64,000 bases of DNA, taken from the NCBI RefSeq assembly GCF_032362555.1, contig NC_083520.1, positions 930,001 to 994,000 of the forward strand, in the 5' to 3' direction. This DNA comes from Amyelois transitella (taxonomy: Eukaryota; Arthropoda; Insecta; Lepidoptera; Pyralidae). Below the pieces are notes generated by a model, which had not been told where the DNA came from, ran no database searches, and saw only the letters and a list, made by a program, of their open reading frames with translations. Below, in pieces: positions 1-64,000 of this stretch. Position 1 is the first letter of the stretch. Every line of letters begins with the position of its first letter. Position numbers and translations under genes: made by a program.

Positions 1-2712
1 CGTGACCGTAGTACCACCGATAGTACTAAATTGGAAGGAGGTGGCGTGCTTATCGCGGTATTAAAAAAACATGAACCTGTTCGTAGACGATCGTGGGAGT
101 CCACAGATGAAGATTTATGGGTGTCAATTGAACTGAGGTTAGGAAACTCAGTTCGGCACTTTTGTATAAGCACTGTTTATTTACCATCTCCGGTAGTATT
201 CGATCAACTTAAACGTGTCACAGCTAATATTACTAATGTTTTACAACACAAAATACCGCAGAATTCATTGCTTCTAATGGCAGGTGATTTTAATTTTCCT
301 AAATTGACATGGAATAAGGACCCTAACACTAATTCTTTTCTCCCATTTGGAAACAATTCATCAGAGGAAGACCTATTTGTAGATACTCTCACATTCAATA
401 ATTTGCACCAGTTAAATCCAGTGACGAATATATCAAAAGACCGTTCATTAGACTTGATTTTCTCTAATGAACTGGATGTTTTTCAAGTAACTGAACACCC
501 TGTACCTTTAGTTCCAATTGATAGTCATCATCCAACTTTATGCATTAAAATGAAGTCTTCATTGCATAAACGAGTAGCCTTTAATAGAACCCCTTTTCTT
601 AATTTCTTCAAGGCTAACTATCCTAGCATCAAAGATGAATTGAATAAGATTGTCTGGTTTGAGCATTTGAAGCCCCATGATTCTGTAGATGATTTGGTTG
701 ATAAGTTTTACGAACTAATTATGCCTATAATTCACGCTCATACGCCTATTGGGACTACTAAAGATAAAAAATTTCCTTGTTGGTTTAGCAGGTCACTAAT
801 CAAAACTCTCAAAGAGAAGGCCAAATTTCACAAGAGATTCAAAAAATATGGTAATCCCAGGGATCAGTTTACGTATAAATTACTGCGTACTAGGTGTGAT
901 AAAATGATTGATGACTGTCTCACAAAGTTTAAGTCTCAAGCTAAAACGGATATTAAGAATGACCCTAAATATTTCTGGACTTATATCAAATCTTTAAGAA
1001 CTAATAGTGTTAATATACCTGACGAAATGTATTTAGAGAATCAAAAAGCTCAGGGTGGACAACAGATTAGTGATCTTTTTTCTGATTTCTTCAATTCAAA
1101 TTACATTAGAAATTCATCAACGACGTATACGGTCTCTTCTTCAAATAATGCTCATGCTTCACTTGGTGCTTGTTACGTGACTAAAGTGGAAATTCTTAGG
1201 GCCCTTGAATCCACGGACACTAAAAAGGGACCGGGTCCTGATGCTATACCACCGATGTTCTTTAAGATATGTGCGTCACAATTAGTTGAGCCGCTTTATA
1301 TAATTTTTAACAAATCACTTACAGCTGGAGTATTTCCCTTAAAGTGGAAAACTGCCCATATAACACCGGTTCATAAAAAAGGAGATCTTACTAACATAAT
1401 TAACTTCAGACCGATTTCGATTCTTTCATTTTTGGGTTTGTTATTTGAATCTTTGGTACAAAAACATCTTTATTTTCATTTTAAATCCCTATTTAATATC
1501 CATCAACACGGTTTTTTGCCTGGTCGCTCAACTGTCTCTAACCTTTTAGGGTATGTGGATGATATAACGGCAGCACTTGAGAATAATTATGAGGTCCATG
1601 CTGTATATACCGACTATTCTAGAGCATTTGATGTAGTTGATCACAACTTACTTTTACAGAAGCTTGCTCATGCCGGAATATGCGGTTCATTACTGAGGTG
1701 GTGTGAATCATATTTGAGAAATCGTTCCCAGCTTGTGGTAGTTCGTGGTTTTAAATCTCAACCTAAATCAGTCCCTTCAGGTGTACCACAGGGCTCGCAC
1801 CTTGGTCCTTTATTCTTTTTAATATTTGTTAACGATCTTTGCTCCAACATTGATACGGAACATAGAATGTTTGCTGATGATTTAAAATTGTACCGTGTAA
1901 TTAAATCGGAGGAGGACGTCACAATGTTGCAGGATGATCTAAACAAACTCAGTCAGTGGACTCTTGATAACAAAATGCTCTTGAATCCCAGCAAGTGTTA
2001 TCTTATAAAATTCACACGCAAAAGAAACTCCCCTAATACACCATATACAATCAATGGTTCTGACCTTCAGGAAGTTGAAAATATTCGAGATCTTGGGGTA
2101 ATGTTGGATCAAAAATTGGATTTTAGAGATCATATTGACTGTGTGGTTAGGAAGGCTTCCAAATTGGCTGGATTTGTAATACGACAGACTAAAGTCTTTA
2201 ACGCGCCTGAAATTCCTAAACTACTTTTCAACTGTTATGTTAGAAATATTCTTGAATATTGCAGTCCAATTTGGAATCCATCATGCGAAATACACGTCAA
2301 TAGAATTGAACGAATACAAAAACGGTTTTTATATCACCTGACCTTTTCAAAAAACCTATGTAATCAGTTACCCTCTTACCAGTTGAGACTTGAGCACTTC
2401 AAACTAATTTCACTCCAGCAGCGTCGTTTAGCCGCTGATATGTTACTCTTGCATAAAATTGTCACGGGCAAAATTGATAACTCTGATCTTCTTAATAGAC
2501 TAGCTTTTTCTATACCTAGATCTAGCAGTCGCCTACACAACCGTGTTGTCTTCCATTTGCCTCATTGTCGTACTAACTATCGCCAAAATTCATCATTAAT
2601 TCGTATGTGCACTCAATATAATAGTATTTGTCATGAGTTAGATATCTTCAATGTATCAACAAATTTTATCAAGAAAGTATTATTGTCAACACAAACCAAT
2701 GAGTCATGGTAG
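1..2712 (+). CDS. Non-LTR retrotransposon ORF2 (endonuclease + reverse transcriptase), 5' end outside window
   Basis: The frame is open from base 1 (no stop between the window edge and position 31) to a TAG at 2710-2712, so the 5' end is cut by the window. Numbering residues from position 31, the N-terminal part is an APE-type endonuclease: GGGVLIAV near the start, GDFN at residues 85-88, and the DSHHP motif at 164-168. The reverse transcriptase follows from about residue 400 (KKGPGPDAIPP). It has the motif A aspartate D528 (VYTDYSRAFD), a PSGVPQGSHLGPLFF segment, and FADD at 614-617, an accepted variant of YADD. Together these encode target-primed reverse transcription. No stop or frameshift interrupts about 900 codons, so this copy is young. 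The poly(A) tail and domain order suggest the Jockey group; the clade assignment is inference. Any ORF1 would lie left of the window. Confidence 0.93.
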   Translation, partial: RDRSTTDSTKLEGGGVLIAVLKKHEPVRRRSWESTDEDLWVSIELRLGNSVRHFCISTVYLPSPVVFDQLKRVTANITNVLQHKIPQNSLLLMAGDFNFPKLTWNKDPNTNSFLPFGNNSSEEDLFVDTLTFNNLHQLNPVTNISKDRSLDLIFSNELDVFQVTEHPVPLVPIDSHHPTLCIKMKSSLHKRVAFNRTPFLNFFKANYPSIKDELNKIVWFEHLKPHDSVDDLVDKFYELIMPIIHAHTPIGTTKDKKFPCWFSRSLIKTLKEKAKFHKRFKKYGNPRDQFTYKLLRTRCDKMIDDCLTKFKSQAKTDIKNDPKYFWTYIKSLRTNSVNIPDEMYLENQKAQGGQQISDLFSDFFNSNYIRNSSTTYTVSSSNNAHASLGACYVTKVEILRALESTDTKKGPGPDAIPPMFFKICASQLVEPLYIIFNKSLTAGVFPLKWKTAHITPVHKKGDLTNIINFRPISILSFLGLLFESLVQKHLYFHFKSLFNIHQHGFLPGRSTVSNLLGYVDDITAALENNYEVHAVYTDYSRAFDVVDHNLLLQKLAHAGICGSLLRWCESYLRNRSQLVVVRGFKSQPKSVPSGVPQGSHLGPLFFLIFVNDLCSNIDTEHRMFADDLKLYRVIKSEEDVTMLQDDLNKLSQWTLDNKMLLNPSKCYLIKFTRKRNSPNTPYTINGSDLQEVENIRDLGVMLDQKLDFRDHIDCVVRKASKLAGFVIRQTKVFNAPEIPKLLFNCYVRNILEYCSPIWNPSCEIHVNRIERIQKRFLYHLTFSKNLCNQLPSYQLRLEHFKLISLQQRRLAADMLLLHKIVTGKIDNSDLLNRLAFSIPRSSSRLHNRVVFHLPHCRTNYRQNSSLIRMCTQYNSICHELDIFNVSTNFIKKVLLSTQTNESW

Positions 2713-2916
2713 GTACTTTTATTTTTATCATAATTTTATTATTGTTTTTCTTTCAATATGAATTCATGTTTTTTTTTTTCCTTTTTAAGTACTAAGAGCT
2801 AATTAATTTTTATGTGCATGCTGTGTTCACTCTTAGAAAGTTGTACAATTTACATGTTTTCAAAATATCTATTTTACTATGTTTGTAATGATTGTAACAA
2901 CTAGTTTGTGAACCAA

Positions 2917-2966
<50 letters not shown>
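1..2966 (+). mobile_element. LINE 3' portion with 3'UTR and 48-nt poly(A) tail
   Basis: The ORF2 stop is followed by an AT-rich 3'UTR (2713-2918), an AATAAA signal at 2916-2921 and an uninterrupted run of 48 A residues (2919-2966). An uninterrupted tail of this length, with an intact ORF, points to recent insertion. The left end and hence the target-site duplication are outside the window. Confidence 0.9.
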
Positions 2967-2970
<4 letters not shown>

Positions 2971-3037
2971 AGTTGAACCACATTTTAGAACGATGATTCG
3001 AAATCCTGAATTCGAACACATTAGAACATTAATTAAC

Positions 3038-3180
3038 TAAAACTAGCGGCATTGTTTAATCTATTATTAATATTAAGACAAACAGCTGAACGTGGCTTTT
3101 CAGTTGTTTTTAAGAATGTTGGCTCTATCTACCCCGCAAGGGATATAGACGTGATTATATGTTTGGATGTATATGTATGA
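3038..3180 (+). repeat. SINE-A fragment (3' part)
   Basis: This matches the 3' half of the dispersed family called SINE-A here: CAGCTGAACGTGGC, then TTGGCTCTATCTACCCCGC, then GGGATATAGACGTGATTATATG. It is diverged and lacks the 5' half. It lies 70 bp beyond the LINE poly(A) tail. Confidence 0.8.
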
Positions 3181-3918
3181 AGAATCAAAAATACGGGCGC
3201 GATCTTACATAGTAGTGACTGTATGTAGAGATGTATTGTAGATACGTCGATAATAACATTTTACAAAGATTGTGACTTAATTTTTACGTCTTGTGAGAAG
3301 TTGGCCGGTACATATTTCACTTTTTGAAAATAATTCTTGATTAAATACATCACTTAATACACATAATATACATATATATATCACATCTAAATCGTACAAG
3401 CAGATAACTCACCAAGACGTAACGGCTTAGAAGTAACTGGAGTATCGTATGTAACGGATGATATATTTAGAATTATGATGATAACTGAGACAAATATGAC
3501 AGATATGCAGCGGAGTAATAAAGTCGCGACAGCGATGGAATTAGACTCGGGTTTCCTAGCCAAGATTTATGGTTCAACTAATTACATATTCAACGTGAAT
3601 TTTTGATTGATGCGGGAGCGAAAATAATTTAATTTGAAGACGGCGTCCATTTGATCCTCGGTGCATAATTTTGCAAATGTGATTTGAAAAAACCATTTAA
3701 TAGATTATTATGTCTCAGTTCCATAGCCGAATGATAAAAACAAAACGCTTATAGTGTTATTTTTTTAGACAAAATTTCTGGCGTACAGTCAACTGGACGT
3801 TAGTTACGCTTAACGGAACTCTATGGCGTTGTAAAGAGAAGCGAGTTCGCAGTGAATTCTGGCAACTTGAAATGTTGGTGACTGTACGTTTATAAATATT
3901 TTTTTTTAGATGCATTAC
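3181..3918. other. No gene recognised
   Basis: AT-rich unique-looking DNA. I see no long ORF, no splice-flanked coding block and no obvious repeat in this interval. Confidence 0.5.
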
Positions 3919-4076
3919 CGTGTCCTGAGATACTCTCAGCCAGTGACAAATCTAGAGCATCTACAGTTAAAGTTTCGAGGTCAGCTGGCTGGTCTGTCTG
4001 TACATCAAGAGGCGACGAAGCGTGTCGCACAGCCGTCGCCGAGAGCCCGCTGTCTGCTGGGAACGGAACGTTGAAC
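3919..4076 (-). other. Candidate internal coding exon, unknown gene
   Basis: On the minus strand a 158-nt block is open in one frame between a CAG acceptor (4079-4077) and a GTAATG donor (starting at 3918). Its base composition is markedly richer in GC than its flanks. The conceptual peptide contains FNVPFPADSGLSATAVRH and later LTVDALDLSLAESISG, which I do not recognise. It could be an isolated exon of a gene with very large introns running right to left. It could also be a chance open stretch. No neighbouring exon was found. Confidence 0.28.
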
Positions 4077-4188
4077 CTGTTTCTTTGAGCTTATATATTT
4101 AATTAATCTAGATAAAGAATTAATTTCAGCCTGGCCAATTTTGAGGTTAAAATTATTATTTTATGAAATATTTATGTCGTAAAATGTC

Positions 4189-4363
4189 ATGGATGTCGTA
4201 AAAGTATTCTTCTCTTAGGCGATGAGCTAGCAACCTGTCACTATTTCAATCTCAATTCTATCATTAAGCCAAACAGTTGAACGTGGCCTATCAGTCTTTT
4301 GAAGACTGTTGGCACTGTCTACCCCGGAAGGGATATCGATGTGATTATATGTATGTACGTATA
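4189..4363 (+). repeat. SINE-A copy, 5'-deleted
   Basis: It carries GGATGTCGTAAAAG, GGCGATGAGCTAGCAACCTG, the Gln-like CTGAACGTGGCC equivalent and the terminal GTGATTATATGTATG. A block after GTCGTAAAA is missing relative to the full copy at 24148-24418. Confidence 0.85.
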
Positions 4364-5413
4364 ATAATTATTAAATTGGTTTGTGGGCTGACATCCCATT
4401 ATCCGCAACATGCTTTTTCATATACCTTACTAAATAAATACAGAATATTTAGGAGAGATTTAAGAAAGTAGATATTTTATTTTACTGACACCATCAATAC
4501 TAGCTGTCATAAGGGATTCCTGGTCGTGACTATTGAACTAAGAAGTGAACTTTTCTCTTGATAATAATGCTGTAAGTACATATACGCCAACTCTCCGTCG
4601 AAATATGTGAGACATGTTAGGTAAACAATGTTGTCTAGACTAAGGATTTAGTGGCATCTCGTGGATACATTCTAAGAATTCTCCTTTTGTATGGCGTCAA
4701 CAAAAGGAGTGTTAGAATTCTTTAAGCAACCAGAGGTGGCGTAGGTTATCGCCGCTTGAGAAATTAATTTGCCCGCTTGTGAAATTCTTAGAATTTTATT
4801 TGGGCAATGTTATCTGTGACATTTGACATCGCCAACGGAAGAAAAAAGCGTTTGTGCTCGAAATAATCAATTACTTAATTCGCTATCGAGAACATACTTC
4901 CGGTCAACATCAATTAATATGAATAATACATTTTTTTGCCATCAGAAGATTATTTACCTAAGTAATTACATTTTTTTTTTTTATTTATATTAAATTATTA
5001 ATGGGTGTACTTATATAAAGCGTATTCAAATTTAAAAGAACAAATAACATTGATTCGTATGATGACATATTTTAATTGGTACTGAAGCTGTTTCAATCTC
5101 AAGGCAAAGTCATATTTTATTTTAGAATTCAATTCAGTAGCATATTGCTATTTGTAGTGACCTTAAAACATTTAAGCCTTTGGTGATACAAAATAAAGAG
5201 AGCCATAGAGATGAAAATAGAAAGAAAAAGGTAAATTGAAAATATAGTATTTCCTAATGAGACATTTCCATATATGTTTACAAAGATACTAAACCACCTC
5301 TTTCCCATAAAGGTAGGTGTTCCTGGATACTTCTTTCGATTCATCTCACATACGCCCCTCTTTCTTCATTCAAATGCACGTCATTTTACGTCCGTAATAT
5401 ATTAATTACTTAC
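4364..5413. other. No gene recognised; one short inverted repeat
   Basis: AT-rich. A 10-bp stem, CTCCTTTTGT and ACAAAAGGAG, sits near 4680-4710 between two GAATTCT words and may be a decayed MITE. Otherwise nothing is supportable. Confidence 0.4.
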
Positions 5414-5574
5414 TAGCGACCCGCCCCGGCTTCGCACGGGTGCAAAATTATAAATGTTTGAATCACTCTACCTGTTACAAAAAACCGCATCAAAATCCGA
5501 TGCGTAATTTTAAAGATTTAAGCATACAGACAAACAGACAAAAATAGCGACTTTGTTTTATACTATGTAGTGAT
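5414..5574 (+). repeat. Dispersed repeat family C (probable LINE 3' end)
   Basis: It begins TAGCGACCCGCCCCGGCTTC and ends GACTTTGTTTTATACTATG followed by TAGTGATG. A second, more diverged copy is at 13475-13622, which defines the family within this window. The layout resembles 3' regions of insect RTE/CR1-type LINEs; that assignment is inference. Confidence 0.7.
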
Positions 5575-5750
5575 GATTTTCAAGTGAGCTCATCATTTTA
5601 GGGTACATTTTAGGTACAAGTAACGAACTGGTGAGAGTTCAGGACCTTCCTTCAGTTCGTCACTCGTTCTTTTGAATCCAATTTGTTTTAGGTTCGGTGC
5701 ATTATTTACAGCCAAGCTCGTGGACTTAAGATTGTTATAGCACAATTTGA

Positions 5751-5974
5751 CGGCCTCTGTGGCGTAGCGGTAATACGCTTGTCTGTAACACCGGAGGTCC
5801 TGGGTTCGAATCCCGGCCAGGGCATGATGAGAAACGAACTTTCTCTGATTGTCCTAGGTCTTGGATGCGTATCTATCTAAGTATTTATTATAAAATATAG
5901 TATCGTTGAGTTAGTATCTCGTAACACAAGATTCGAACATATGTCGAGGCTAAATCAATATGTGTAATTTGTCC
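5751..5974 (+). repeat. tRNA-derived SINE (tSINE), near complete
   Basis: The head is tRNA-like. It has an A box TGGCGTAGCGG at 5760-5770 and a B box GGTTCGAATCC at 5803-5813, the internal RNA polymerase III promoter. The body follows (GATGAGAAACGAACTTTCTC, then a segment with TATTTATTATAAAATATAG) and the end is TGTGTAATTTGTCC. Related copies are at 27342-27564 (-), 50149-50335 (-) and a tail fragment at 8722-8765 (-). The anticodon loop differs between copies, so the parental tRNA is unresolved. Confidence 0.88.
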
Positions 5975-7095
5975 TGTATATATTTATTTATAGCATGACC
6001 TTACACCAGACCCTCGTCTTCTTCCGAATCCACGTTATTTTATATCAGAGACACATCTTGACCCGTGCTCCCGCTTCCACTTTTTTTCCTGCACCGTCTC
6101 GCCCCACCGTTCCGAGAACTGTCGTTGTGGAAAAAAACAACAAATAACCCAGCAGCGAACAAAGGTGTGAATATAATTAATGGTTCATCAAAGGATCCGC
6201 CTCCGTCGTCCCCATTCGGTCGTGATCTCATCACGTGGTGTTTCACCGGCAGCGTACTCGCAAATATGGGTTATGACTTCAAGTGCAAGTTGCCCCTTCT
6301 TCTACACATGCGCTTTGAAAGCGGTAGTTGTTATAATTAAAGTCATGTGACGTCAATAGGGCATACCTTGTATCCAATTTTTTTAAATAAATCTATTCTA
6401 GCGAAATTGGATTTAGAGGATTAGCCTTTGCTGATAGAATGTCGTTTTTAATATCTTCGTTGCACAGTTGCAAGAAATAGTACATAGTTATAAAAGAAAT
6501 TAATCACTTGCAATGGCGTACTTATCCCATGAAGGGATCTTCCAGTCGACCGGCAAAAAATAAAGGAACTAGATAATTAAGTAACAAAGCGGCAAGTCGC
6601 TGTGGTATTAGTAATAATATTATAAGATACTAACATAAATACAAATAAAGAACATATACCAACCCCCTAAATATATATGTATGTATAAATTTATTAATAA
6701 ATAAACATACATAGACTTAGATACTTTGCCTGATGTTCTAGGTGCTTAGATCTGGGTGCTCAAGTGGATATTTAAAAAATCATCATTTAAACTCAAACTT
6801 ATATAGGTTAGATTAAGATTGAGATTATTGGTTGAAATCTCAAAATAATCTTGGTTAAAAAATGTAACGTACCTCATGCTTACATTCTATTTTAATTTCC
6901 GTACAAACTTGCGTCATATTCTCAAGATCCGCTTTACGACATACTTCGAGAAAATAAGTGCTCACCTCTTAAAATTTCTAAGTATTCTCAATAACACGTT
7001 AACAAAGTTCACCACTGATTACAATGTGTTATAATAGTCTCACCTACAGCGAACCTTTTTATTGCAGCAACCTTTTATGAATCGGCCTGTGGTTC
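5975..7095. other. No gene recognised; GC-richer island 6000-6340
   Basis: The island has overlapping open frames on both strands (91 codons on +, 68 on -). Neither has convincing splice sites or a recognisable domain, and the minus frame contains a hydrophobic run. I treat it as non-coding, possibly regulatory. Confidence 0.35.
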
Positions 7096-7200
7096 ACAAA
7101 CTGTGTGTCATTATTTGAATCTCAGTTCCATCACTTAGTCATAAAAGCTGAATGTGGTATTTTTCTAGTTTATAGGCCCCGTAAGCGATGCTCTAACGTC
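7096..7200 (+). repeat. Diverged SINE-A fragment
   Basis: The words TCATTATTTGAATCTCAG and TTCCATCACTTAGTC, and a degraded AGCTGAATGTGG, align with the middle of SINE-A. The tail is lost. Confidence 0.6.
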
Positions 7201-7562
7201 AAATAGAACATCCAATTGATGTATCAGAAGAAGATATGGTATCATGTTATCAAAGGCTTGAGAACCACTGGTCTCTGCCATATAGTTGATGTTTACTGCG
7301 ATTTAATGTGCGATAATGTTGGGCTTGCGCACAGCAAGGGACCCTTACTAAGGGCTGCCACACACGCGGCAATTTTATATCGTTAATAACGGTTGATTGA
7401 TAATTTTACCAAGTACAAGTATTCATATCCATAATAAATATACTAAAATTGTAACTAGCCAATGTCCTGTCTTGAAAGATATTGGTTAAAAATCGATATG
7501 GGAGTGATTTATCAATTTTTGATTAAAATAAGTGAAAAATGTTTGTGAGTATGTTTGTACTC

Positions 7563-7655
7563 GTATCACTATCCCCAAGTCGCCTTTAACGACATCCGTG
7601 GGCAAGAGATGGAGTGGCCCTATTCTTTATTCTATTGGTGCCAGTAACCACTCGT
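7563..7655 (-). repeat. SINE-A 5' fragment
   Basis: On the minus strand it reads as the first third of SINE-A: ACCACTCCATCTCTTGCCC preceded by the GGCACCAATA-like start, then CGACATCC and AGGCGACTTGGGGATAG. It lacks the 3' two thirds. Confidence 0.75.
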
Positions 7656-8128
7656 CATATCTATACTAAATTCTACGAATATTAAGTTAAATTCTCCATA
7701 CAAAAATGCAGTCTGTGGCAAAAAGGTGATTTAATTTTGAATAACCCTAACAACATTCTCGTAGGTTCCACACTCTCGTCGTGTTAGCATAATGATCCGA
7801 AAAACGGGCGAATATGACCAGAAGATTAATACAAACTACCTAGCACTTGTTGCTAATTTCAAGAGATAGTCACGACATATTGACGTCATTGGATAATCTT
7901 TGTGGGAACGGAAGTGTAATAGACAAGTTTGTAAAATTATTACACGAGAGGGATTTTAATATACACTTGGCAAGGTGGTTGTTAAAGTTAAACATTGCTT
8001 ATTCTGTAATACGTACTATGATTACAGTGGTCCAGAGTATTTATAAATACTACAGGTATTTTATTTTATCTCGGACATTTTAAATCATTTTAATATATGG
8101 GTACGTTACGTGCACGTTAAAAAAAAAT

Positions 8129-27341: not shown

Positions 27342-27564
27342 GACAAATTACACTGATTGAGTAAGCCTCGAAGTAAGTTCGCGACTTGTGTTACGAGATG
27401 CTAACTCAACGATACTATATTTTATAATAAATACTTATATAGATGAACATCCAAGACCCAGGCCAATCAGAAAGAGTTCTTTTCTCATCATGCCCTGGCC
27501 GGGATTCGAACCCGGGACCTCCGGTGTCGCAGACAAGCGTACTGCCGCTGCGCCACAAAGGCCG
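27342..27564 (-). repeat. tRNA-derived SINE (tSINE), full length
   Basis: On the minus strand it has a well preserved tRNA-like head. The B-box GGTTCGAATCC lies in CCCGGGTTCGAATCCCGGCC, and the A-box region reads TGGCGCAGCGGCAGTACGC. The body is colinear with 5751-5974 and the end is CAGTGTAATTTGTC. It is better preserved than the 5.7-kb copy. Confidence 0.9.
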
Positions 27565-35109: not shown

Positions 35110-36438
35110 TACATTCAGTCAGAAAAGTATCGGGAATGGATTATTTATTTATGGTTCCAAATTCAAATTTTTGTTTTTTTTTGTTGTTGTTAGATTGGCA
35201 CAACTGTTTTCCATTTTGGCGCGGAGTTTGAGTTGCATCTGTTGTTTACATTAAATACAGTGCTATTTTTAGTTATATCATATCTAGTGTGTATTGCTAA
35301 TTTCATAATGGATAAAAACATCGAACAAAGAGTTTGTCTTAAATTTTGCATTGCCAATGGAATATCGTGTTCGGAGTCACTGAAAATGTTACAGAAGGCT
35401 TATGGTGAATCGACTTTATCAAAAACTCGTGCTTATGAGTGGTACAAAGCGTTCAAAAGCGGTCGAGATGTGATGGAAGATTTGCCTCGCTCTGGTAGGC
35501 CATCAACGTCTGCAACTGAAGTTAACATCGCAAAAGTGAAGGAAATAGTGACTGAAAATCCTCATTCAACTTTGAGAGAGATAGCCACCGAACTTTCTGT
35601 ATCTCACGAGTCGATCCGTACCATTTTAACTAATAATAATTTGGGTATGAAACATGTTGCCGCTCGGCTAGTCCCAAAAGACCTGAATTTTTTTCAAAAA
35701 CTCAATCGCATGAGAGTCGCTGAGGACATGCTAGAACGAGTCAATGCCGACCCAACATTCATGAAACGCATTGTTACTGGTGACGAGACGTGGGTTTACG
35801 AGTTTGACTTGCAAACTAGTCAACAAGCTTCGGAGTGGCGCCTTCCAACTGAACCGAAACCGAAAAAACCACGCCAAAGTCGTTCAAAAGTCAAAGTCAT
35901 GTTGACTGTTTTCTTTGACTATCGCGGTGTTGTGCACTCGGAATTCTTGCCGGAAGGTCAAACGGTAAATAAGGAATATTATTTGAGTGTTATGCGGCGT
36001 TTAAGAGAGCAAATCCGACGAAAAAGGCCAGATTTGTGGAAAGAAAATTCTTGGATTTTGCACCATGATAATGCACCTTCGCACAAGGCCATCATTGTGA
36101 ACGAATTTTTAACCAAACACTTAACAAATACCATCGAGCAACCACCATATTCACCAGATATGGCTCCAGCCGACTTTTTTCTTTTTCCTAAACTCAAATT
36201 ACCACTTCGTGGCACCCGTTTTCAATCGGTAGAAGACATAAAAGAGAATTCGCGGCGAGAACTGACCTCAATTCCGGAAACAGCGTTTAAAAAATGTTTT
36301 GATGATTGGATTATTCGTTGGCGTAAGTGTATCGTTTCTAAAGGAGCATATTTTGAAGGTGATAAAATAAATTTGGATGAATAACAAACAGTTTGTGTAT
36401 TATTGATCTTTTCCCGCTACTTTCTTGACAGAGTAGTA
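35110..36438 (+). mobile_element. mariner-family DNA transposon, apparently complete
   Basis: A 1325-bp element (35112-36436) is bounded by TA dinucleotides at 35110-35111 and 36437-36438, the mariner target duplication. The inverted ends of about 30 bp share GTCA, AAAGTA and CGGGAA (left CAGTCAGAAAAGTATCGGG, right as reverse complement CTGTCAAGAAAGTAGCGGGA). Several mismatches are concentrated in the left outer end. It carries one uninterrupted transposase frame. Length and organisation are typical of full-length mariners. Confidence 0.92.
35308..36384 (+). CDS. mariner transposase (DD34D), intact 358-aa frame
   Basis: I chose the ATG at 35308 (MDKNIEQRVCLKFC) because it matches the usual mariner N-terminus. 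The in-frame ATG at 35233 would add 25 hydrophobic residues unlike the family. The N-terminal half has helix-turn-helix segments (TLREIATELSVSHESIRTIL). The catalytic core shows TGDETWVYEFD (first Asp), HHDNAPSH (second Asp) and SPDMAPADFF (third Asp), with 34 residues between the second and third, the DD34D signature. The usual WVPHEL linker motif is replaced by RLVPKDL. No stop or frameshift is present, so the protein could be active. The imperfect left terminal repeat argues that this copy may no longer be mobilised efficiently. Confidence 0.95.
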   Translation: MDKNIEQRVCLKFCIANGISCSESLKMLQKAYGESTLSKTRAYEWYKAFKSGRDVMEDLPRSGRPSTSATEVNIAKVKEIVTENPHSTLREIATELSVSHESIRTILTNNNLGMKHVAARLVPKDLNFFQKLNRMRVAEDMLERVNADPTFMKRIVTGDETWVYEFDLQTSQQASEWRLPTEPKPKKPRQSRSKVKVMLTVFFDYRGVVHSEFLPEGQTVNKEYYLSVMRRLREQIRRKRPDLWKENSWILHHDNAPSHKAIIVNEFLTKHLTNTIEQPPYSPDMAPADFFLFPKLKLPLRGTRFQSVEDIKENSRRELTSIPETAFKKCFDDWIIRWRKCIVSKGAYFEGDKINLDE

Positions 36439-52048: not shown

Positions 52049-52265
52049 CTAATAATATTAGTAATATTTATTCTGCTACCTAATATAACGAACACCTCTA
52101 GAGTTGAGCTGAGAGACTCGAACCCCTCGAACTCCATTTTCAACAACGTCTCGTGAGTGCGATTTACATTAAGAAATAATTTACATTTTTCGCAATAATT
52201 ATATAATTTATTTTTTTAATTGAAATTTCTGTGATATAGTTAAGTATACTCATTATTTATACAAT
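52049..52265. other. RIOK3 upstream region
   Basis: AT-rich leader DNA before the RIOK3 ATG with a GC-richer patch at 52100-52165 (CGTCTCGTGAGTGCG). I cannot place a core promoter. Confidence 0.4.
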
Positions 52266-54470
52266 ATGTCGAACCCTTGGAAGAAAGTTGCAGCGCCAGC
52301 TGATGTGCAAAACCTTTCAGAAATAATGTCAGAGCAATATGCGAAAGATCTTCAAATCAAAGAAGAAATCAAATTCGCTGAAGAAATAGGGACTGCATTC
52401 CAGTCACACGACCCCGTAAGCAGCGAATCCAGTGATATATCGCCAGAAATATTGAAACATATTGAAGATTCGAACGTAAAAGAGTTCTGCGATTCAGACG
52501 CTGTTATTGCAAAAGTGTTGCAATGTCAATTTGATAAAGAATATGATGATGAAATCAGGCGAGTGGAAAAGAAACTCAACGGAGAATCGAAAGTGTCGGT
52601 ATCTTTTGAAAACTACCGCCATGTTCCTGACCATTTAATTTACGATTCCGAACCTGAAGATGAGGATGTTGACATAGCTGCTAATAAGGACTGGGATCGG
52701 TTTGAAACTAATGAGAAAGAGTTCGCAAATTTACCTACTGTTAAGAATGGCACAATAGTGACGAAACATGATAGTGATATTAATGGCAGGAGGAATGCAT
52801 GCCGTGTTATGGCATTCCCGCCAGAAGTGTGTACAGGGGATGGTGCTGGATTCGACATGAAACTGTCCAATGCAGTGTTTAATCAATTGAAAGAGAGTAC
52901 AAGAGTCCATCAGCCTCGCAAAATCACATTGTTAGATAAGAAGGATGCAAAAGCTACAGCTGTAATGGCCGTGGACGAGGCAACAAAGCTTATACTTTAT
53001 AAGCTTGTTTACACCACCAATCTGCTTGAGGCTGTTAATGGAGTGATCTCAACAGGCAAAGAAGCTGTTGTGTTCCATGCTGATGGAAACACTTCATATC
53101 CCGACTTGGTAATACCAAAAGAGTGTGCTGCCAAGGTATTCAAGACAACTCTGTGTGAATTTAAAACGAGGGATAAGTATATAGAGGCGGACTATCGTTT
53201 CAAAGATAGATTCTCGAAGCAGAATCCGTGGAAAATTGTGCAAATGTGGGCCGAGAAGGAGAAGCACAACTTGATACGTATGCAGAAGATTGGAATGAAT
53301 TGTCCCCAAATGATTTGTTTAAAAAAGAATGTTTTGTTGATGTCTTTTATTGGGCGTGACATCACACCGGCGCCAAAACTTAAAGATGTGATTCTTGATG
53401 CGAAAAAATGGCAGAGGGTGTACATTGAGGTTATAGATGCCATGTACAAATTGTACAATGAAGGGCACCTGATTCATGCCGATTTGTCGGAGTACAACAT
53501 CTTGTGGTGGGAGAACAAGTGTTGGTTTATAGATGTGTCCCAGTCAGTACAACCTGACTATCCGAAAGGGTTGGACTTCTTGCTCAGAGATTGCCAGAAT
53601 ATTACCAATGTAAGTAAAACAACAAGTATTTTCAGTCATGGGTAACATTAGTTTCATGGCGACCATGAATGTTGCCATATATTATAATATTGTTTAGATG
53701 TTGTAGGATATTGCATAACATAAACAAATATTTTGTTTCATTTGTGAGGTGTAAACAATGACTCACTAGTGTTTCTCATTATGATGGCTAGAAAGTAGTC
53801 TTTTTATCAAGTAATTAAGTTGTTGTTTTTTATAAAGTTGAAATTTTGATTTTAGAAATTCCTTATGAAATACGTTGTTAGTTTATCTTTTGGAGTTTTT
53901 TGGGGAACAAAGTCAAATTGCCTTCTGGTTATAGTTATGCTCCCTATGTAAGTCTCTATTTAATTATTTCTAACTCAATTTTATAATTTACAGTTCTTTG
54001 AGAAGAAGGGAGTGCAAAACATGAAGTCTGTAGACAAACTATTCAAGTGGATCACTGGCTTTGATGATGTGGATGTGAATCTGTTGGATGGAGTTCACAC
54101 AATCTACAATTCCTTATCATCCCGCTTTGAGATAGCACCAGATGACAATCGCAATGTCAGCTATCCGTTTGAGTATTGCTGGCAGAAGACCAATGAGGGG
54201 AGGATGGCGGAAAGTGACAATGAAGAAGATGAATTTGATGAAATGTGGAACTTCTCAATTAAGAATAAATTTGACACTGCCGTCAACTTAGGCAATGTTG
54301 TGGAAGTAGATGGCGAGGAAGATCATAAAAATGAAAAAATGAAGACTGAGGATAAGGTTGTTAATGAAGAATGTGTGAATATTGTTGATAATAATATCAA
54401 TTTCGCCAATGAATTGGATGTTGTACCCCTCGATGAGGGTATAAATAGTAGTAAACACAAAAAGTCTTAA
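52266..54470 (+). CDS. RIOK3: RIO-type atypical protein kinase RIOK3 (two exons, 606 aa)
   Basis: Exon 1 is 52266-53609 (448 codons), the intron is 53610-53993 (GTAAGT...ACAG, phase 0), and exon 2 is 53994-54470 (158 aa). The RIO P-loop STGKEAVVF starts at S262. The ATP lysine is K290 (AAKVFK), the catalytic loop HADLSEYN has D406, and IDVSQSV carries metal-binding D423. The segments VIPKECAAKVFKTTL and ADYRFKDRFSKQNPWK, and the N-terminal MSEQYAKDLQ, fit RIOK3 rather than RIOK1 or RIOK2. RIOK3 associates with pre-40S particles in cytoplasmic 18S rRNA maturation. The protein is longer than human RIOK3 (519 aa) because of an acidic C-terminal extension after the kinase domain. An AATAAA is at 54621-54626. 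Confidence 0.95.
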
Positions 54471-56251: not shown

Positions 56252-58827
56252 TTAACTCCTAATGAGACTGTCAACGAGGTCGGCCTGCTGCCTGCTCAGC
56301 GCCGGCTTGGTGTCTACCGCAGCTGTCACCAGTGATGAGAGATCTCTGCTTGTTACAGACAGCGTCACGGACTGCAGCTTCAGACGGAGGTCAGGGTTCA
56401 CTGGGAACACTGAAAGTAAGGACTATATAAATTACAAGGAAGACAGCACCAGTAGTCTATAGAAGACTCAAATGCTATGCCGATTTTTTTACATTTTCCA
56501 TTATTTCTTGGCTCCTTATAGTTGCAGCGTGATGTTATATAGCCTAAAACCTTCCTCGATAAATGGGCTATTCAACACAAAAAAAAATTCAATTCGAACG
56601 AAGTAGTTCCTGAGATTAGCGCGTTCAAACAAACAAACTTTTCAGCTTTATAATATTAGTATAGATTGTACTAAATAACTTACTATCAGTCTCGCAGTCA
56701 TTCATAATGGCGGTAAACAGCTGTTTCAACGATTCTGGTTTACTCTCCTCAGGTGGTTCCACAAGAAGCGTAAGAAGAACACGGCTTATTTGTACCCTGA
56801 AATTACGATAAGAGAAATATTTTTTACTTCTTTGTTTTCACAAAGTTTTTTCTAGCAAATTTATGCAATGAATATCGTAGGATGTGAATCAAAGTTGATG
56901 GAGTGAAAAACACTAATGCATCAATGTCAGGCAGACAACCAGAAATTGAGTTTTTGCAAATGTTCTCAAATCAAAATAAATTATACATTCTATTCTCATC
57001 ATTCAGTGAAAACTTTGCCATATATTATACTTTTTTGAACTTTGTTTTCACTGTCTTATTTTAATATTGAGTTTGAAAATCAAACAGCTCAAAATACAGT
57101 ATGGTAGCAACAAATAAGGCTACTTCTAAGGCAAACCTGTGCCTGCAGGTAACAACTTATATGAATAAGGTTCCCCTGTAAAGATTGCAGAGATCAGATT
57201 GGAGTACAAACTTGAGTAACTAATCCTGAATCATGATTCTGGATTAGTAAGTCAAGTTTGTACTGGGTCTGGGGTGCACCTCCGACTCCTCTAACATGGA
57301 CTAACATACTTACATACTAATAATCATGTCTATATCCCTTGCAGGGTTTTGCAGGACCAACAGTCTTGAAAAGACTGAAAGGTCACATAGCTTTTTGGCT
57401 TTATAATAGAATTGAGATTCAAATAGTGACAGGTTGCTAGCCCATCGCCAAAAAGAAGAATCCCAAGTTTATAAGACTACCCATTACTGTAACTAACACT
57501 AAGATAAAAAAGTATACTATTACTTACTCAGCTAATACATCTTCAGGAATACTTGTGAAAGAATCAACAAGAGAATTAGCAGTATCCAAGGCTTCCTCAA
57601 ATTTATCTAAAAAAGAATATATCACTGTTATAAACAACATTTTGAAAGTGCTAGGGACTGACTGAGTTAATGGTCCTATTTTATACATACAAACACATAG
57701 TCATGGCTAAATCCCTTGAGGGGTAGACAGCCAACAGTCTTAAAAAGACTAAAAAGCCACATTGAGCTCTATGGCTTATTTTAATCTGTTTATTATTTAA
57801 GACAGTGACTTGTTGCTTAACTCTTACAAAGCTATCAAAATTATATACTGTCAGAGGAGTTTAATTTAATTACGTTAATTTTATAATTTAATTACATGAT
57901 ATGGATCATGACAACCGAAATATTTTCTTACATATAACATAAACTGTAAATAAATAGGCTGCACATTTAGTAGCCATAAAAATTATAGGTTCTCACTAAT
58001 GTTTTATCATTGAGTGGTCCTACTAGCAAGGAATCACTCAAAATTAACACTTACCACATTCAATCAATAAATTCACTAAGTTCTTCATATGCACAATTTT
58101 CATGGTCTTCTCGTCAATATCCTCCAAGGCTTGCTGATAATATGCCACAGCTTCACACTTGTGGTTGAGGGCTACGAGATGGTCGGCTATTTCCATCAAT
58201 ATTGAGGTTCTTAGAAGGGACTTCTCAGGGTACTTTGTTAGTGCTTGCAAATAACATCCTATGGCCGCCTGGAAAAATTTAATTATTTCATTGCTCATTT
58301 ATTTTATTTCCTCATAATCTGTCCTTTTGAGGTAGACAGAGCTTATGGACAAAAGTCATGACACTTCAACTCAGCATTCACTTACTAACAAGTGTGAACA
58401 AATAAAAAAATTTCTGTATTAACACTCACTTCCAAATTCTCCCTATCAGGGCTCGAGAATTTAAGTGAAAGCAGCTTCTTCTCAGCCTTCATGAACTGCC
58501 TTGCCGCTGTTATATAGTACTCCGCCTCCCCAAAAGCGTTTCCAGCTGTGGCCTCACATTTCGCAGCCCCGATATACGCGTGCCCTGCGAATATTGGTTG
58601 CTCACTATGTTCACACTGTATAGCCAATGCGATAAACTCATTTGTGGCCTCCGAAATGTTAGGCTTCCTCATAAAACGCCTGTAAACATATTGATAAGTT
58701 ATTAACACAATGTGAAGAAGATTTAATGATTGTTTAAGGGGATAATCGATCGTGATACGCACTTTTTTAGCTTCGTATTGATGTTCATGTATTGCTCATC
58801 GAAACTTGCAAAAAGGTCCGTAGCCAT
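56252..58827 (-). CDS. F8A: Huntingtin-associated 40-kDa protein HAP40 / F8A (six exons, 292 aa)
   Basis: Exons in transcript order: 58827-58763, 58679-58430, 58268-58055, 57606-57528, 56796-56684, 56409-56252. Every junction is GT-AG, the phases agree, and the 879-nt sum ends at TAA (56252-56254). The N-terminal NTKLKKRFMRKPNISEATNE parallels NKLKKRFLRKPNVAEA of vertebrate F8A. TPR-like helices follow (AGHAYIGAAKCEATAGNAFG; EAVAYYQQALEDI), then ISRVLLTLLVEPPEES and the terminal LRLKLQSVTLSV. HAP40 forms a stable complex with huntingtin and links it to Rab5 endosomes. The human protein is 371 aa; this one is shorter. Introns 3, 4 and 5 hold SINE-A, family E and Helitron pieces. Confidence 0.93.
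56478..56665 (-). mobile_element. Truncated Helitron-like element in F8A intron 5
   Basis: Read on the minus strand it starts TCTATACTAATATTATAAAG after an A, and shares CATCACGCTGCAACTATAAG and AATAATGGAAAATGT with the complete copy at 26108. The 3' end with CTAG is missing. Its 5' end lies only 17 bp past the intron's donor site. Confidence 0.8.
57150..57300. repeat. Family E copy carrying a 62-bp near-perfect palindrome (F8A intron 4)
   Basis: GGTTCCCCTGTAAAGATTGC starts a family E copy. From 57203 to 57264 the sequence is self-complementary about GAATCATGATTC. The outer arms AGTACAAACTTGA and TCAAGTTTGTACT match fully and there are four short mismatched positions inside. Confidence 0.88.
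57310..57482 (-). repeat. SINE-A, 5'-truncated (F8A intron 4)
   Basis: ATATCCCTTGCAGGGTTTTG, CAACAGTCTTGAAAAGACTG and GTTGCTAGCCCATCGCC on the plus strand are the reverse complement of the family. Confidence 0.87.
57683..57828 (-). repeat. Diverged SINE-A (F8A intron 3)
   Basis: AAATCCCTTGAGGGGTAGAC, CCAACAGTCTTAAAAAGACT and GACTTGTTGCTTAACTC align with SINE-A but with many changes, so it is older than its neighbour in intron 4. Confidence 0.8.
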
Positions 58828-59213: not shown

Positions 59214-59690
59214 ATTCTAACGCTAACAACATTTTGTTTTTTATAAGTACGATAATGCGGTATAATATAAAAGTGTTATACTAAGAAATTTTCCTATCAT
59301 ATAAACTTAAAATCTGATCTGATTGAATCAAAAATTCAATATGGCGTATTAAACTAATATAAAAAATATTAATATGTCTAGTTGGTACTTTGGTATATCT
59401 ATATATCGGAAATTAGAACTCATTCAGTAGTAGATAAGACAATTGAATTAATTAGTTAATTCCTCGTTTTGGGGCTAAAACACTTTGCTGGAAACATTGA
59501 ACCGCGCACTGACAGTTAGATAGTGTCACAGTTCACAACTAACACTGACTTTTATGAAAATCTTCCGAACTTCGGGGAGCAAAATATTTTTACAAAACGT
59601 CAATGTCACACAAAATCATTGCTATTTGCTGTCCTGTCACTCTTAGCTGTCAGTCTAATGTCAAGTGAAGTGTCAAATATAATAATGCTT

Positions 59691-59702
59691 TGACGTGACG
59701 TG
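59691..59702 (+). promoter_or_regulatory. UPRE/CrebA-like site upstream of USO1 (repeated in each unit)
   Basis: TGACGTGACGTG lies 111 bp before the ATG. TGACGTGA fits the unfolded-protein-response element TGACGTG(G/A) and resembles sites of CrebA/CREB3-type factors, which drive secretory-pathway genes. The site recurs at 61098-61109, 62505-62516 and 63913-63924. The match is seen; the regulation is inference. Confidence 0.4.
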
Positions 59703-59812
59703 TCTTATTAGAAATTTGGAATATTTTACTGTGTGTTTCTCTATTTTACGACATGATTTCGTTATAATAATAACTGTGCTAGATATAAATAGAGTAGTGA
59801 GTGCTCTGCAAT

Positions 59813-60373
59813 ATGGATTTCCTAAAAAGCGGCCTCAAAACTGTCCTTGGGGCTCCAGAGCCCGGTCAACAACCTTCGGCAGCCGAAACGGTGACTTTTC
59901 TACGATTTTCTTCCAAAATATTAGCATTTAACCCATTAACCCACAGCCTACGATTTATGTTATAAAGCGTATTAACCCTGATAAAGATTTTGGAGCGCGA
60001 GGCCACGTATAAAAAGAATAGTAACACATAATGCCTGCCAAATTCATTGGATGTTTTCCATTTATTTTGAGCTTGAGGTTCAAGTGTTCCGCTCATTTGC
60101 AGCGTAAAATATGATGTTTTTTATGATTCCGAAGCCGGAAGAATATGTTGGTATTCTAAAAGCTTAAAAGTATTAGTACCTATTTAAAATATTTTTTTTT
60201 TCACTTTGGATGTCTGATGGTGTTTTGATGTGTACCAGGTGGAGCGCCTAGTGGATCGTGTCAACAATTCCACGTTATTAGAAGACCGTCGCGATGCCTG
60301 CCGCGCGCTCAAAGCTATGTCCAGGAAATACCGGGTGGAGGTTGGGGCACAGGGGATGGACACATTGAAACAG
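59813..60373 (+). CDS. USO1: General vesicular transport factor p115, exons 1-2, copy 1
   Basis: Exon 1 (59813-59890, 26 codons) reads MDFLKSGLKTVLGAPEPGQQ and ends at GAAACG/GTGACT. Exon 2 (60239-60373, 45 codons) starts after TGTACCAG and reads VERLVDRVNNSTLLEDRRDA, with RALKAMSRKYRVEVGAQGMD, ending CAG/GTACCC. The sequence parallels the N-terminus of p115/USO1 (STLLDDRRNA and ALKSLSKKYRLEVG in vertebrates), the start of its armadillo-like globular head. p115 is the Rab1-binding coiled-coil tether for ER-to-Golgi vesicles. Both exons are phase 0 with lengths divisible by three, so repeated exon 2 could be included in frame. The rest of the gene lies beyond the window. Confidence 0.92.
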
Positions 60374-61219
60374 GTACCCATTTACCAAATTATTATAAAA
60401 AAAATTTCTGCTACTGACTAATGATTGAAATGGATATTGTAAAGGCTTCCACTGTTTGTCTTTTGTTAAATTATTCAATAATAATATATATATATGTTCA
60501 ATAAGTGGAGTGATAAGAGAGCCCCATATACATATATCTACCTGTTATGTGATTTCTGGGATTTCCTACCCACATATCTTCTCTATCTCTGAGCCAATTT
60601 TAATTAAATGAAAATTATCAATTCTAACGCTAACAACATTTTGTTTTTTATAAGTACGATAATGCGGTATAATATAAAAGTGTTATACTAAGAAATTTTC
60701 CTATCATATAAACTTAAAATCTGATCTGATTGAATCAAAAATTCAATATGGCGTATTAAACTAATATAAAAAATATTAATATGTCTAGTTGGTACTTTGG
60801 TATATCTATATATCGGAAATTAGAACTCATTCAGTAGTAGATAAGACAATTGAATTAATTAGTTAATTCCTCGTTTTGGGGCTAAAACACTTTGCTGGAA
60901 ACATTGAACCGCGCACTGACAGTTAGATAGTGTCACAGTTCACAACTAACACTGACTTTTATGAAAATCTTCCGAACTTCGGGGAGCAAAATATTTTTAC
61001 AAAACGTCAATGTCACACAAAATCATTGCTATTTGCTGTCCTGTCACTCTTAGCTGTCAGTCTAATGTCAAGTGAAGTGTCAAATATAATAATGCTTTGA
61101 CGTGACGTGTCTTATTAGAAATTTGGAATATTTTACTGTGTGTTTCTCTATTTTACGACATGATTTCGTTATAATAATAACTGTGCTAGATATAAATAGA
61201 GTAGTGAGTGCTCTGCAAT

Positions 61220-61780
61220 ATGGATTTCCTAAAAAGCGGCCTCAAAACTGTCCTTGGGGCTCCAGAGCCCGGTCAACAACCTTCGGCAGCCGAAACGGTG
61301 ACTTTTCTACGATTTTCTTCCAAAATATTAGCATTTAACCCATTAACCCACAGCCTACGATTTATGTTATAAAGCGTATTAACCCTGATAAAGATTTTGG
61401 AGCGCGAGGCCACGTATAAAAAGAATAGTAACACATAATGCCTGCCAAATTCATTGGATGTTTTCCATTTATTTTGAGCTTGAGGTTCAAGTGTTCCGCT
61501 CATTTGCAGCGTAAAATATGATGTTTTTTATGATTCCGAAGCCGGAAGAATATGTTGGTATTCTAAAAGCTTAAAAGTATTAGTACCTATTTAAAATATT
61601 TTTTTTTTCACTTTGGATGTCTGATGGTGTTTTGATGTGTACCAGGTGGAGCGCCTAGTGGATCGTGTCAACAATTCCACGTTATTAGAAGACCGTCGCG
61701 ATGCCTGCCGCGCGCTCAAAGCTATGTCCAGGAAATACCGGGTGGAGGTTGGGGCACAGGGGATGGACACATTGAAACAG
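61220..61780 (+). CDS. USO1: p115 exons 1-2, copy 2
   Basis: Exon 1 is 61220-61297 and exon 2 is 61646-61780. I find it identical to copy 1, including splice sites and the upstream 600 bp. With no downstream exons before the next unit, it cannot by itself encode a full protein. Either it contributes an alternative first exon or repeated exon 2, or the duplication is an assembly artefact. Confidence 0.85.
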
Positions 61781-62626
61781 GTACCCATTTACCAAATTAT
61801 TATAAAAAAAATTTCTGCTACTGACTAATGATTGAAATGGATATTGTAAAGGCTTCCACTGTTTGTCTTTTGTTAAATTATTCAATAATAATATATATAT
61901 ATGTTCAATAAGTGGAGTGATAAGAGAGCCCCATATACATATATCTACCTGTTATGTGATTTCTGGGATTTCCTACCCACATATCTTCTCTATCTCTGAG
62001 CCAATTTTAATTAAATGAAAATTATCAATTCTAACGCTAACAACATTTTGTTTTTTATAAGTACGATAATGCGGTATAATATAAAAGTGTTATACTAAGA
62101 AATTTTCCTATCATATAAACTTAAAATCTGATCTGATTGAATCAAAAATTCAATATGGCGTATTAAACTAATATAAAAAATATTAATATGTCTAGTTGGT
62201 ACTTTGGTATATCTATATATCGGAAATTAGAACTCATTCAGTAGTAGATAAGACAATTGAATTAATTAGTTAATTCCTCGTTTTGGGGCTAAAACACTTT
62301 GCTGGAAACATTGAACCGCGCACTGACAGTTAGATAGTGTCACAGTTCACAACTAACACTGACTTTTATGAAAATCTTCCGAACTTCGGGGAGCAAAATA
62401 TTTTTACAAAACGTCAATGTCACACAAAATCATTGCTATTTGCTGTCCTGTCACTCTTAGCTGTCAGTCTAATGTCAAGTGAAGTGTCAAATATAATAAT
62501 GCTTTGACGTGACGTGTCTTATTAGAAATTTGGAATATTTTACTGTGTGTTTCTCTATTTTACGACATGATTTCGTTATAATAATAACTGTGCTAGATAT
62601 AAATAGAGTAGTGAGTGCTCTGCAAT

Positions 62627-63188
62627 ATGGATTTCCTAAAAAGCGGCCTCAAAACTGTCCTTGGGGCTCCAGAGCCCGGTCAACAACCTTCGGCAGCCGA
62701 AACGGTGACTTTTCTACGATTTTCTTCCAAAATATTAGCATTTAACCCATTAACCCACAGCCTACGATTTATGTTATAAAGCGTATTAACCCTGATAAAG
62801 ATTTTGGAGCGCGAGGCCACGTATAAAAAGAATAGTAACACATAATGCCTGCCAAATTCATTGGATGTTTTCCATTTATTTTGAGCTTGAGGTTCAAGTG
62901 TTCCGCTCATTTGCAGCGTAAAATATGATGTTTTTTATGATTCCGAAGCCGGAAGAATATGTTGGTATTCTAAAAGCTTAAAAGTATTAGTACCTATTTA
63001 AAATATTTTTTTTTTTCACTTTGGATGTCTGATGGTGTTTTGATGTGTACCAGGTGGAGCGCCTAGTGGATCGTGTCAACAATTCCACGTTATTAGAAGA
63101 CCGTCGCGATGCCTGCCGCGCGCTCAAAGCTATGTCCAGGAAATACCGGGTGGAGGTTGGGGCACAGGGGATGGACACATTGAAACAG
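62627..63188 (+). CDS. USO1: p115 exons 1-2, copy 3
   Basis: Exon 1 is 62627-62704 and exon 2 is 63054-63188. Coding sequence and splice sites are unchanged. Intron 1 is one base longer (one extra T in the poly-T run before the acceptor). It is the last complete unit in the window; a fourth begins at 63436 and is cut before its exon 1. Confidence 0.85.
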
Positions 63189-64000
63189 GTACCCATTTAC
63201 CAAATTATTATAAAAAAAATTTCTGCTACTGACTAATGATTGAAATGGATATTGTAAAGGCTTCCACTGTTTGTCTTTTGTTAAATTATTCAATAATAAT
63301 ATATATATATGTTCAATAAGTGGAGTGATAAGAGAGCCCCATATACATATATCTACCTGTTATGTGATTTCTGGGATTTCCTACCCACATATCTTCTCTA
63401 TCTCTGAGCCAATTTTAATTAAATGAAAATTATCAATTCTAACGCTAACAACATTTTGTTTTTTATAAGTACGATAATGCGGTATAATATAAAAGTGTTA
63501 TACTAAGAAATTTTCCTATCATATAAACTTAAAATCTGATCTGATTGAATCAAAAATTCAATATGGCGTATTAAACTAATATAAAAAATATTAATATGTC
63601 TAGTTGGTACTTTGGTATATCTATATATCGGAAATTAGAACTCATTCAGTAGTAGATAAGACAATTGAATTAATTAGTTAATTCCTCGTTTTGGGGCTAA
63701 AACACTTTGCTGGAAACATTGAACCGCGCACTGACAGTTAGATAGTGTCACAGTTCACAACTAACACTGACTTTTATGAAAATCTTCCGAACTTCGGGGA
63801 GCAAAATATTTTTACAAAACGTCAATGTCACACAAAATCATTGCTATTTGCTGTCCTGTCACTCTTAGCTGTCAGTCTAATGTCAAGTGAAGTGTCAAAT
63901 ATAATAATGCTTTGACGTGACGTGTCTTATTAGAAATTTGGAATATTTTACTGTGTGTTTCTCTATTTTACGACATGATTTCGTTATAATAATAACTGTG

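Follow-up and report, generated by a model that had tools for sequence, protein, structure and literature searches.

A six-unit tandem array at the 5′ end of the p115/USO1 gene in the Amyelois transitella assembly, probably a very recent amplification

The p115/USO1 gene of Amyelois transitella opens, in the genome assembly, with six head-to-tail copies of its own 5′ end. Judging from the sequence, we put at about two in three the probability that a 1407-bp segment holding the promoter, exon 1 and exon 2 was amplified in tandem very recently, the copy number itself being unproven. Such an array is probably near-neutral and is perhaps polymorphic in the species.

Where does the array begin and end? 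The window analysed is the whole stretch of 64,000 nucleotides at C16:930001-994000. Compared with itself, it contains direct head-to-tail repeats from position 59214 to its end, at offsets of 1407, 1408, 2814, 2815 and 4222, and the array runs past its right edge. When the adjoining 30 kb is included, six units are found at C16:989214-997658, 8.4 kb in all, three of them and part of a fourth lying inside the window. They start, in window numbering, at 59214, 60621, 62028, 63436, 64844 and 66252, and measure 1407, 1407, 1408, 1408, 1408 and 1407 bp. Unit 1 (59214..60620, forward strand like the others) comprises upstream/promoter DNA, exon 1, intron 1, exon 2 and the start of intron 2 of p115/USO1. 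Unit 2 (60621..62027) is identical to it, unit 3 (62028..63435) has one additional T at unit position 989, and unit 4 (63436..64000) is incomplete at the window end. Units 4–6 continue through C16:997658 (67658 in window numbering), whereupon single-copy intron 2 follows, exon 3 starting at C16:998097. The sole difference found among the units lies in a T tract of intron 1, 37 bp upstream of exon 2 (60192..60201 in unit 1), which reads T10, T10, T11, T11, T11 and T10 in units 1–6. There are no substitutions over 6 × 1407 = 8,442 bp. The earlier note had described at least three full units of 1407–1408 bp and a partial fourth, differing by one T; our self-comparison agrees and extends the series to six.

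The flanks of the array are single-copy, the left on the side of an F8A-like gene and the right leading to exon 3 of p115/USO1. The first unit opens with ATTCTAAC, after a left flank unlike the inter-unit junction; between units the sequence is TATCA-ATTCTAAC; and past the end of the last unit, at 67658, comes ATTGGTTG. The first inter-unit junction, at 60616..60623 (forward strand), joins TATCA to ATTCTAACG, and the single right flank reads TATCA-ATTGG, so the ATT common to both ends constitutes a 3-bp microhomology. The same exact junction is present five times and is absent from both single-copy flanks.

Is the unit found elsewhere? A search of the species' own assembly (327,366,114 bases in 33 contigs), in which the best candidates only were scored and very common words skipped, listed six matches, all consecutive on the same contig; no other match, and hence no second copy of the p115 5′ locus, was among those listed. 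We reject an origin as a satellite or transposon, since the listed matches include none elsewhere in the genome and the unit has the content of a gene. An inverted-repeat artefact of missed adapters is likewise rejected, the repeats being direct. Tandem Repeats Finder, in a run whose longest period was 500, did not report the array.

How might six such units have arisen? A tandem duplication at the 3-bp ATT microhomology would have created the junction, and unequal crossing-over or replication slippage between the identical copies could then have raised their number to six. An inner copy would have acquired one T and transmitted it, leaving three inner neighbours with T11; the order T10, T10, T11, T11, T11, T10, in which neighbours are alike, fits stepwise expansion of this kind. 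Six units that share one junction between single-copy flanks would also count in favour of a real amplification. On a star tree, the absence of substitutions over 8,442 bp limits divergence among the copies to at most about 3.6e-4 changes per site (upper 95% bound), which suggests that they are either very young or homogenised. The lepidopteran mutation rate is about 3e-9 per site and generation. At that rate, and provided that no homogenisation has occurred, the bound would place the split of the copies of the order of 1e5 generations ago or more recently.

Two of these observations also count against a real amplification. The T10/T11 difference may equally be a product of homopolymer calling noise, and perfect identity is equally expected where a loop in the assembly graph is walked too often. 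The main rival explanation is that assembly inflated the copy number: two or three real tandem copies, or a duplication confined to a single haplotype, would have formed a graph loop that was walked six times. The perfect identity of the units, with the T homopolymer as sole variation, speaks for it. On the other hand, the units are not all equal (T10/T11), and long reads, if used for this assembly, would commonly exceed the 8.4 kb of the array. Moreover, the 293,000 bp that contain the array and its surroundings are free of N, a count to which joins made without N are invisible. False exon gains are a documented class of assembly error, as Ko et al. report (PMC9516828). We consider such a miscount possible but unlikely.

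A more radical alternative is that the array is wholly false, with one unit at most on any molecule, the copies stemming from haplotype retention or a read-overlap error. This was the artefact put forward in the earlier note, which argued that perfect repeats are typical of a mis-resolved haplotype or read overlap. Retained haplotypes, however, would as a rule number two and be set apart by substitutions, rather than number six with one exact junction; a comparison confined to substitutions between copies found 0 among the six units, alongside one homopolymer length change. The new microhomology junction, moreover, occurs five times and is in neither single-copy flank. Ko et al. (PMC9516828) diagnose false duplications by a read depth at haploid level, by gaps and by discordant linked reads; the duplicates here have no gap between them, the 293,000 bp containing 0 N. 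The shared junction in six copies, the lack of N and the lack of haplotype-like substitution thus weaken the artefact explanation, which keeps its standing as a rival; in its wholly false form we regard it as improbable.

Is this stretch of the assembly prone to such repeats? In a scan of 293 kb for 40-mers shared at offsets of 30–8000, four rows were marked as tandem. Two belong to the p115 array, of which another piece did not reach the mark, and the other two are minisatellites, at C16:1052063-1052595 (period 122 bp, 100% identical) and C16:1090664-1091344 (period 127 bp, about 99% identical). A looser self-BLAST of the same 293 kb kept 97 pairs with a length of 100 bp or more and an offset below 3 kb, and most of those displayed, the array's own rows being excluded from the display, were multi-copy. 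No other near-identical kilobase-scale tandem array was found in the 293 kb examined. Since the p115 array is the sole one of its kind there, it does not reflect a general defect of the stretch.

What does each unit encode? The coding part of exon 1 (59813..59890, forward strand; 78 bp, 26 residues) ends at the donor GTGACT and recurs in the window at 61220-61297 and 62627-62704. Exon 2 (60239..60373, forward strand; 135 bp, 45 residues, phase 0 at both ends) begins with GTGGAGCGC and ends with TTGAAACAG; its further copies in the window are at 61646-61780 and 63054-63188. In all six units both are in phase 0 with GT/AG ends, and their splice context is the same, exon 1 standing before GTGACT and exon 2 between TGTGTACCAG and GTACCC. 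Exons 1 and 2 together match p115 (PDB 3gq2_A) at E 3.8e-15 and the yeast-type USO1 (6lst_A) at E 6.2e-8; alone, these 71 residues match no Pfam family up to E 1. A model of exons 1–6, built by hand from open frames and splice signals and ending at the sixth exon, aligns with positions 4 to 572 of 3gq2_A at E 7.6e-214. It also matches the Uso1_p115_head and armadillo tether-repeat domains, at E 8.2e-44 for PF04869 and E 9.9e-34 for PF18770. A protein search of the genome, which scored best candidates only (9 of them), listed 7 matches, six to exon 2 and one to exon 3; this listing fits a single p115 gene with a six-fold start. The identification as p115 and the content of the unit (promoter DNA, exon 1 and exon 2), both proposed in the earlier note, are thereby borne out, as is its reckoning that the exons are in phase 0, have lengths divisible by 3 and could be reiterated in frame.

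Its description of exon 2 as an armadillo-head segment, by contrast, is inexact. In 3gq2_A the counterpart of exon 2 is positions 23-67, the alignment of exons 1–6 having an offset of four. According to Striegl et al. (PMC2645507), HR1 of p115 comprises residues 21-54, is predicted to be unordered and has been reported as a binding site for the appendage (‘appendix’) domain of beta-COP; the armadillo head was crystallised from residue 54. If the numbering is the same, some 32 of the 45 residues encoded by exon 2 would lie in HR1, ahead of the crystallised armadillo region, and exon 2 would consist mainly of HR1 together with the start of the armadillo region, and not of a whole armadillo repeat.

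Could the array alter the protein? The last unit, nearest to exon 3, would be the likely source of the ordinary p115 mRNA. Transcripts begun in units 1–5 could skip to the last exon 2 and so also give ordinary p115; alternatively, they could join extra copies of exon 2 in frame, each adding 45 residues. Since exon 2 is in phase 0, splicing from one exon 2 to another would keep the frame, and exon 1 joined in silico to one, two or six copies of exon 2 and the first 300 bases from the start of exon 3 contains no stop. A downstream exon 1 could not sit inside a longer reading frame, because in-frame stops stand just before its ATG (the preceding codons are TAG TGA GTG CTC TGC AAT). The array may or may not alter the protein.

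Another reading is that the array is functional and under selection, several promoters raising p115 output or the reiteration of exon 2 multiplying HR1. The joined exons remain open with two copies of exon 2 and with six, and the upstream DNA and splice sites are identical in each unit. Yet correct phase and intact splice sites are no argument for selection, since any fresh copy of exons 1 and 2 would have them, and the copies are too alike for selection to be revealed. We therefore hold a selected function to be extremely improbable. Hardly more credible is a true VNTR-like repeat of promoter and HR1 exon that would yield p115 isoforms with one to six copies of HR1 from several start sites; it may derive from a small circle, excised from the 5′ end of the gene at the ATT microhomology, whose rolling-circle product re-entered by homology.

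Further duplications are found within the p115 gene. The 3′ part of exon 6 and the adjoining intron are directly duplicated over 207 bp at 94.2% identity (C16:1002451-1002657 and 1002856-1003062, by self-BLAST), with 2 matches in 293 kb. This duplication, being diverged, is older and less easily explained by assembly, and it suggests that duplications of pieces of p115 do happen here; it bears on the array only indirectly. By eye its second copy is without an acceptor and looks like a relic. In a repeat-rich duplication of 86.6% identity (C16:1000759-1001071 and 1001172-1001489), p115 exon 5 is present in truncated form (EQLLRVLLATNIGSSP) upstream of the complete exon. This duplication says less about local copying, because the copies around it belong to an interspersed repeat that is common here (135 matches in 293 kb).

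To the left of the array lie pieces of an F8A/HAP40-like gene (58044..58827, reverse strand), recognized as open reading frames, with a weak match over 70 residues to HAP40 (6ez8_B, E 0.0004) and a start codon placed by eye. This gene is a divergent neighbour, and its own 5′ side is outside the repeated unit. Farther away, a forward-strand frame at 52224-53645 has a RIO1 kinase domain (PF01163, E 2.5e-57), which we take to be probably RIOK3-like, and the next frame, at 53964-54470, matches no Pfam family. The window also contains an open frame of 396 residues for a mariner/Mos1-type transposase (35194-36384, forward; PF01359, HTH_48) and a frame resembling a non-LTR element (1-2712, forward, running off the window start), with endonuclease (PF14529) and reverse transcriptase (PF00078) matches. 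Genes for tRNA-Tyr (gta; 5753-5824, forward) and tRNA-Arg (gcg; 27491-27562, reverse) were called by ARAGORN and found as tRNA by Rfam too. Outside the window, contig C33 opens with the mitochondrial order trnM-trnI-trnQ, which is a mark of Lepidoptera; ARAGORN called trnQ, whereas trnM and trnI were assigned by eye on the strength of their anticodons.

If confirmed, the array would be a nearly just-formed, six-copy repeat of exons and promoter in a conserved trafficking gene. It would give a direct view of the origin of in-phase exon repeats, at a stage that mutation has yet to blur, and of whether extra promoters or extra copies of HR1 change p115. If not confirmed, it would be a clean case of a chromosome-scale assembly miscounting copies within a gene, one that would mislead gene annotation.

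How does the array compare with known systems? The likeness to the globular head of the vesicle tether p115/USO1 (PDB 3gq2, 2w3c) is that exons 1–6 align with 3gq2_A from 4 to 572; the difference is that here exon 2, with HR1 and the first armadillo residues, occurs six times in the genome sequence. The array resembles the false exon gains treated in PMC9516828 in that exons are repeated inside one gene of an assembly, but differs in having six copies, no gap and one exact microhomology junction. In the assembly sequence, head-to-tail copies stand at one locus (six units) and a 5′ end is repeated without its 3′ end (exons 1 and 2 in all six, exon 3 listed once), which would assign the array to an already known class, the partial-gene tandem duplication. 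In Drosophila yakuba, polymorphic tandem duplications are described, one of which captures the 5′ end of a gene (PMC5460883). Like the array, the duplications described there are young and head-to-tail and may carry a promoter and 5′ end without the 3′ end. In contrast to them, the array is known from one assembly and comprises six copies of a small unit, which sit at the p115 gene itself, so that the remainder of the gene still continues from the last copy.
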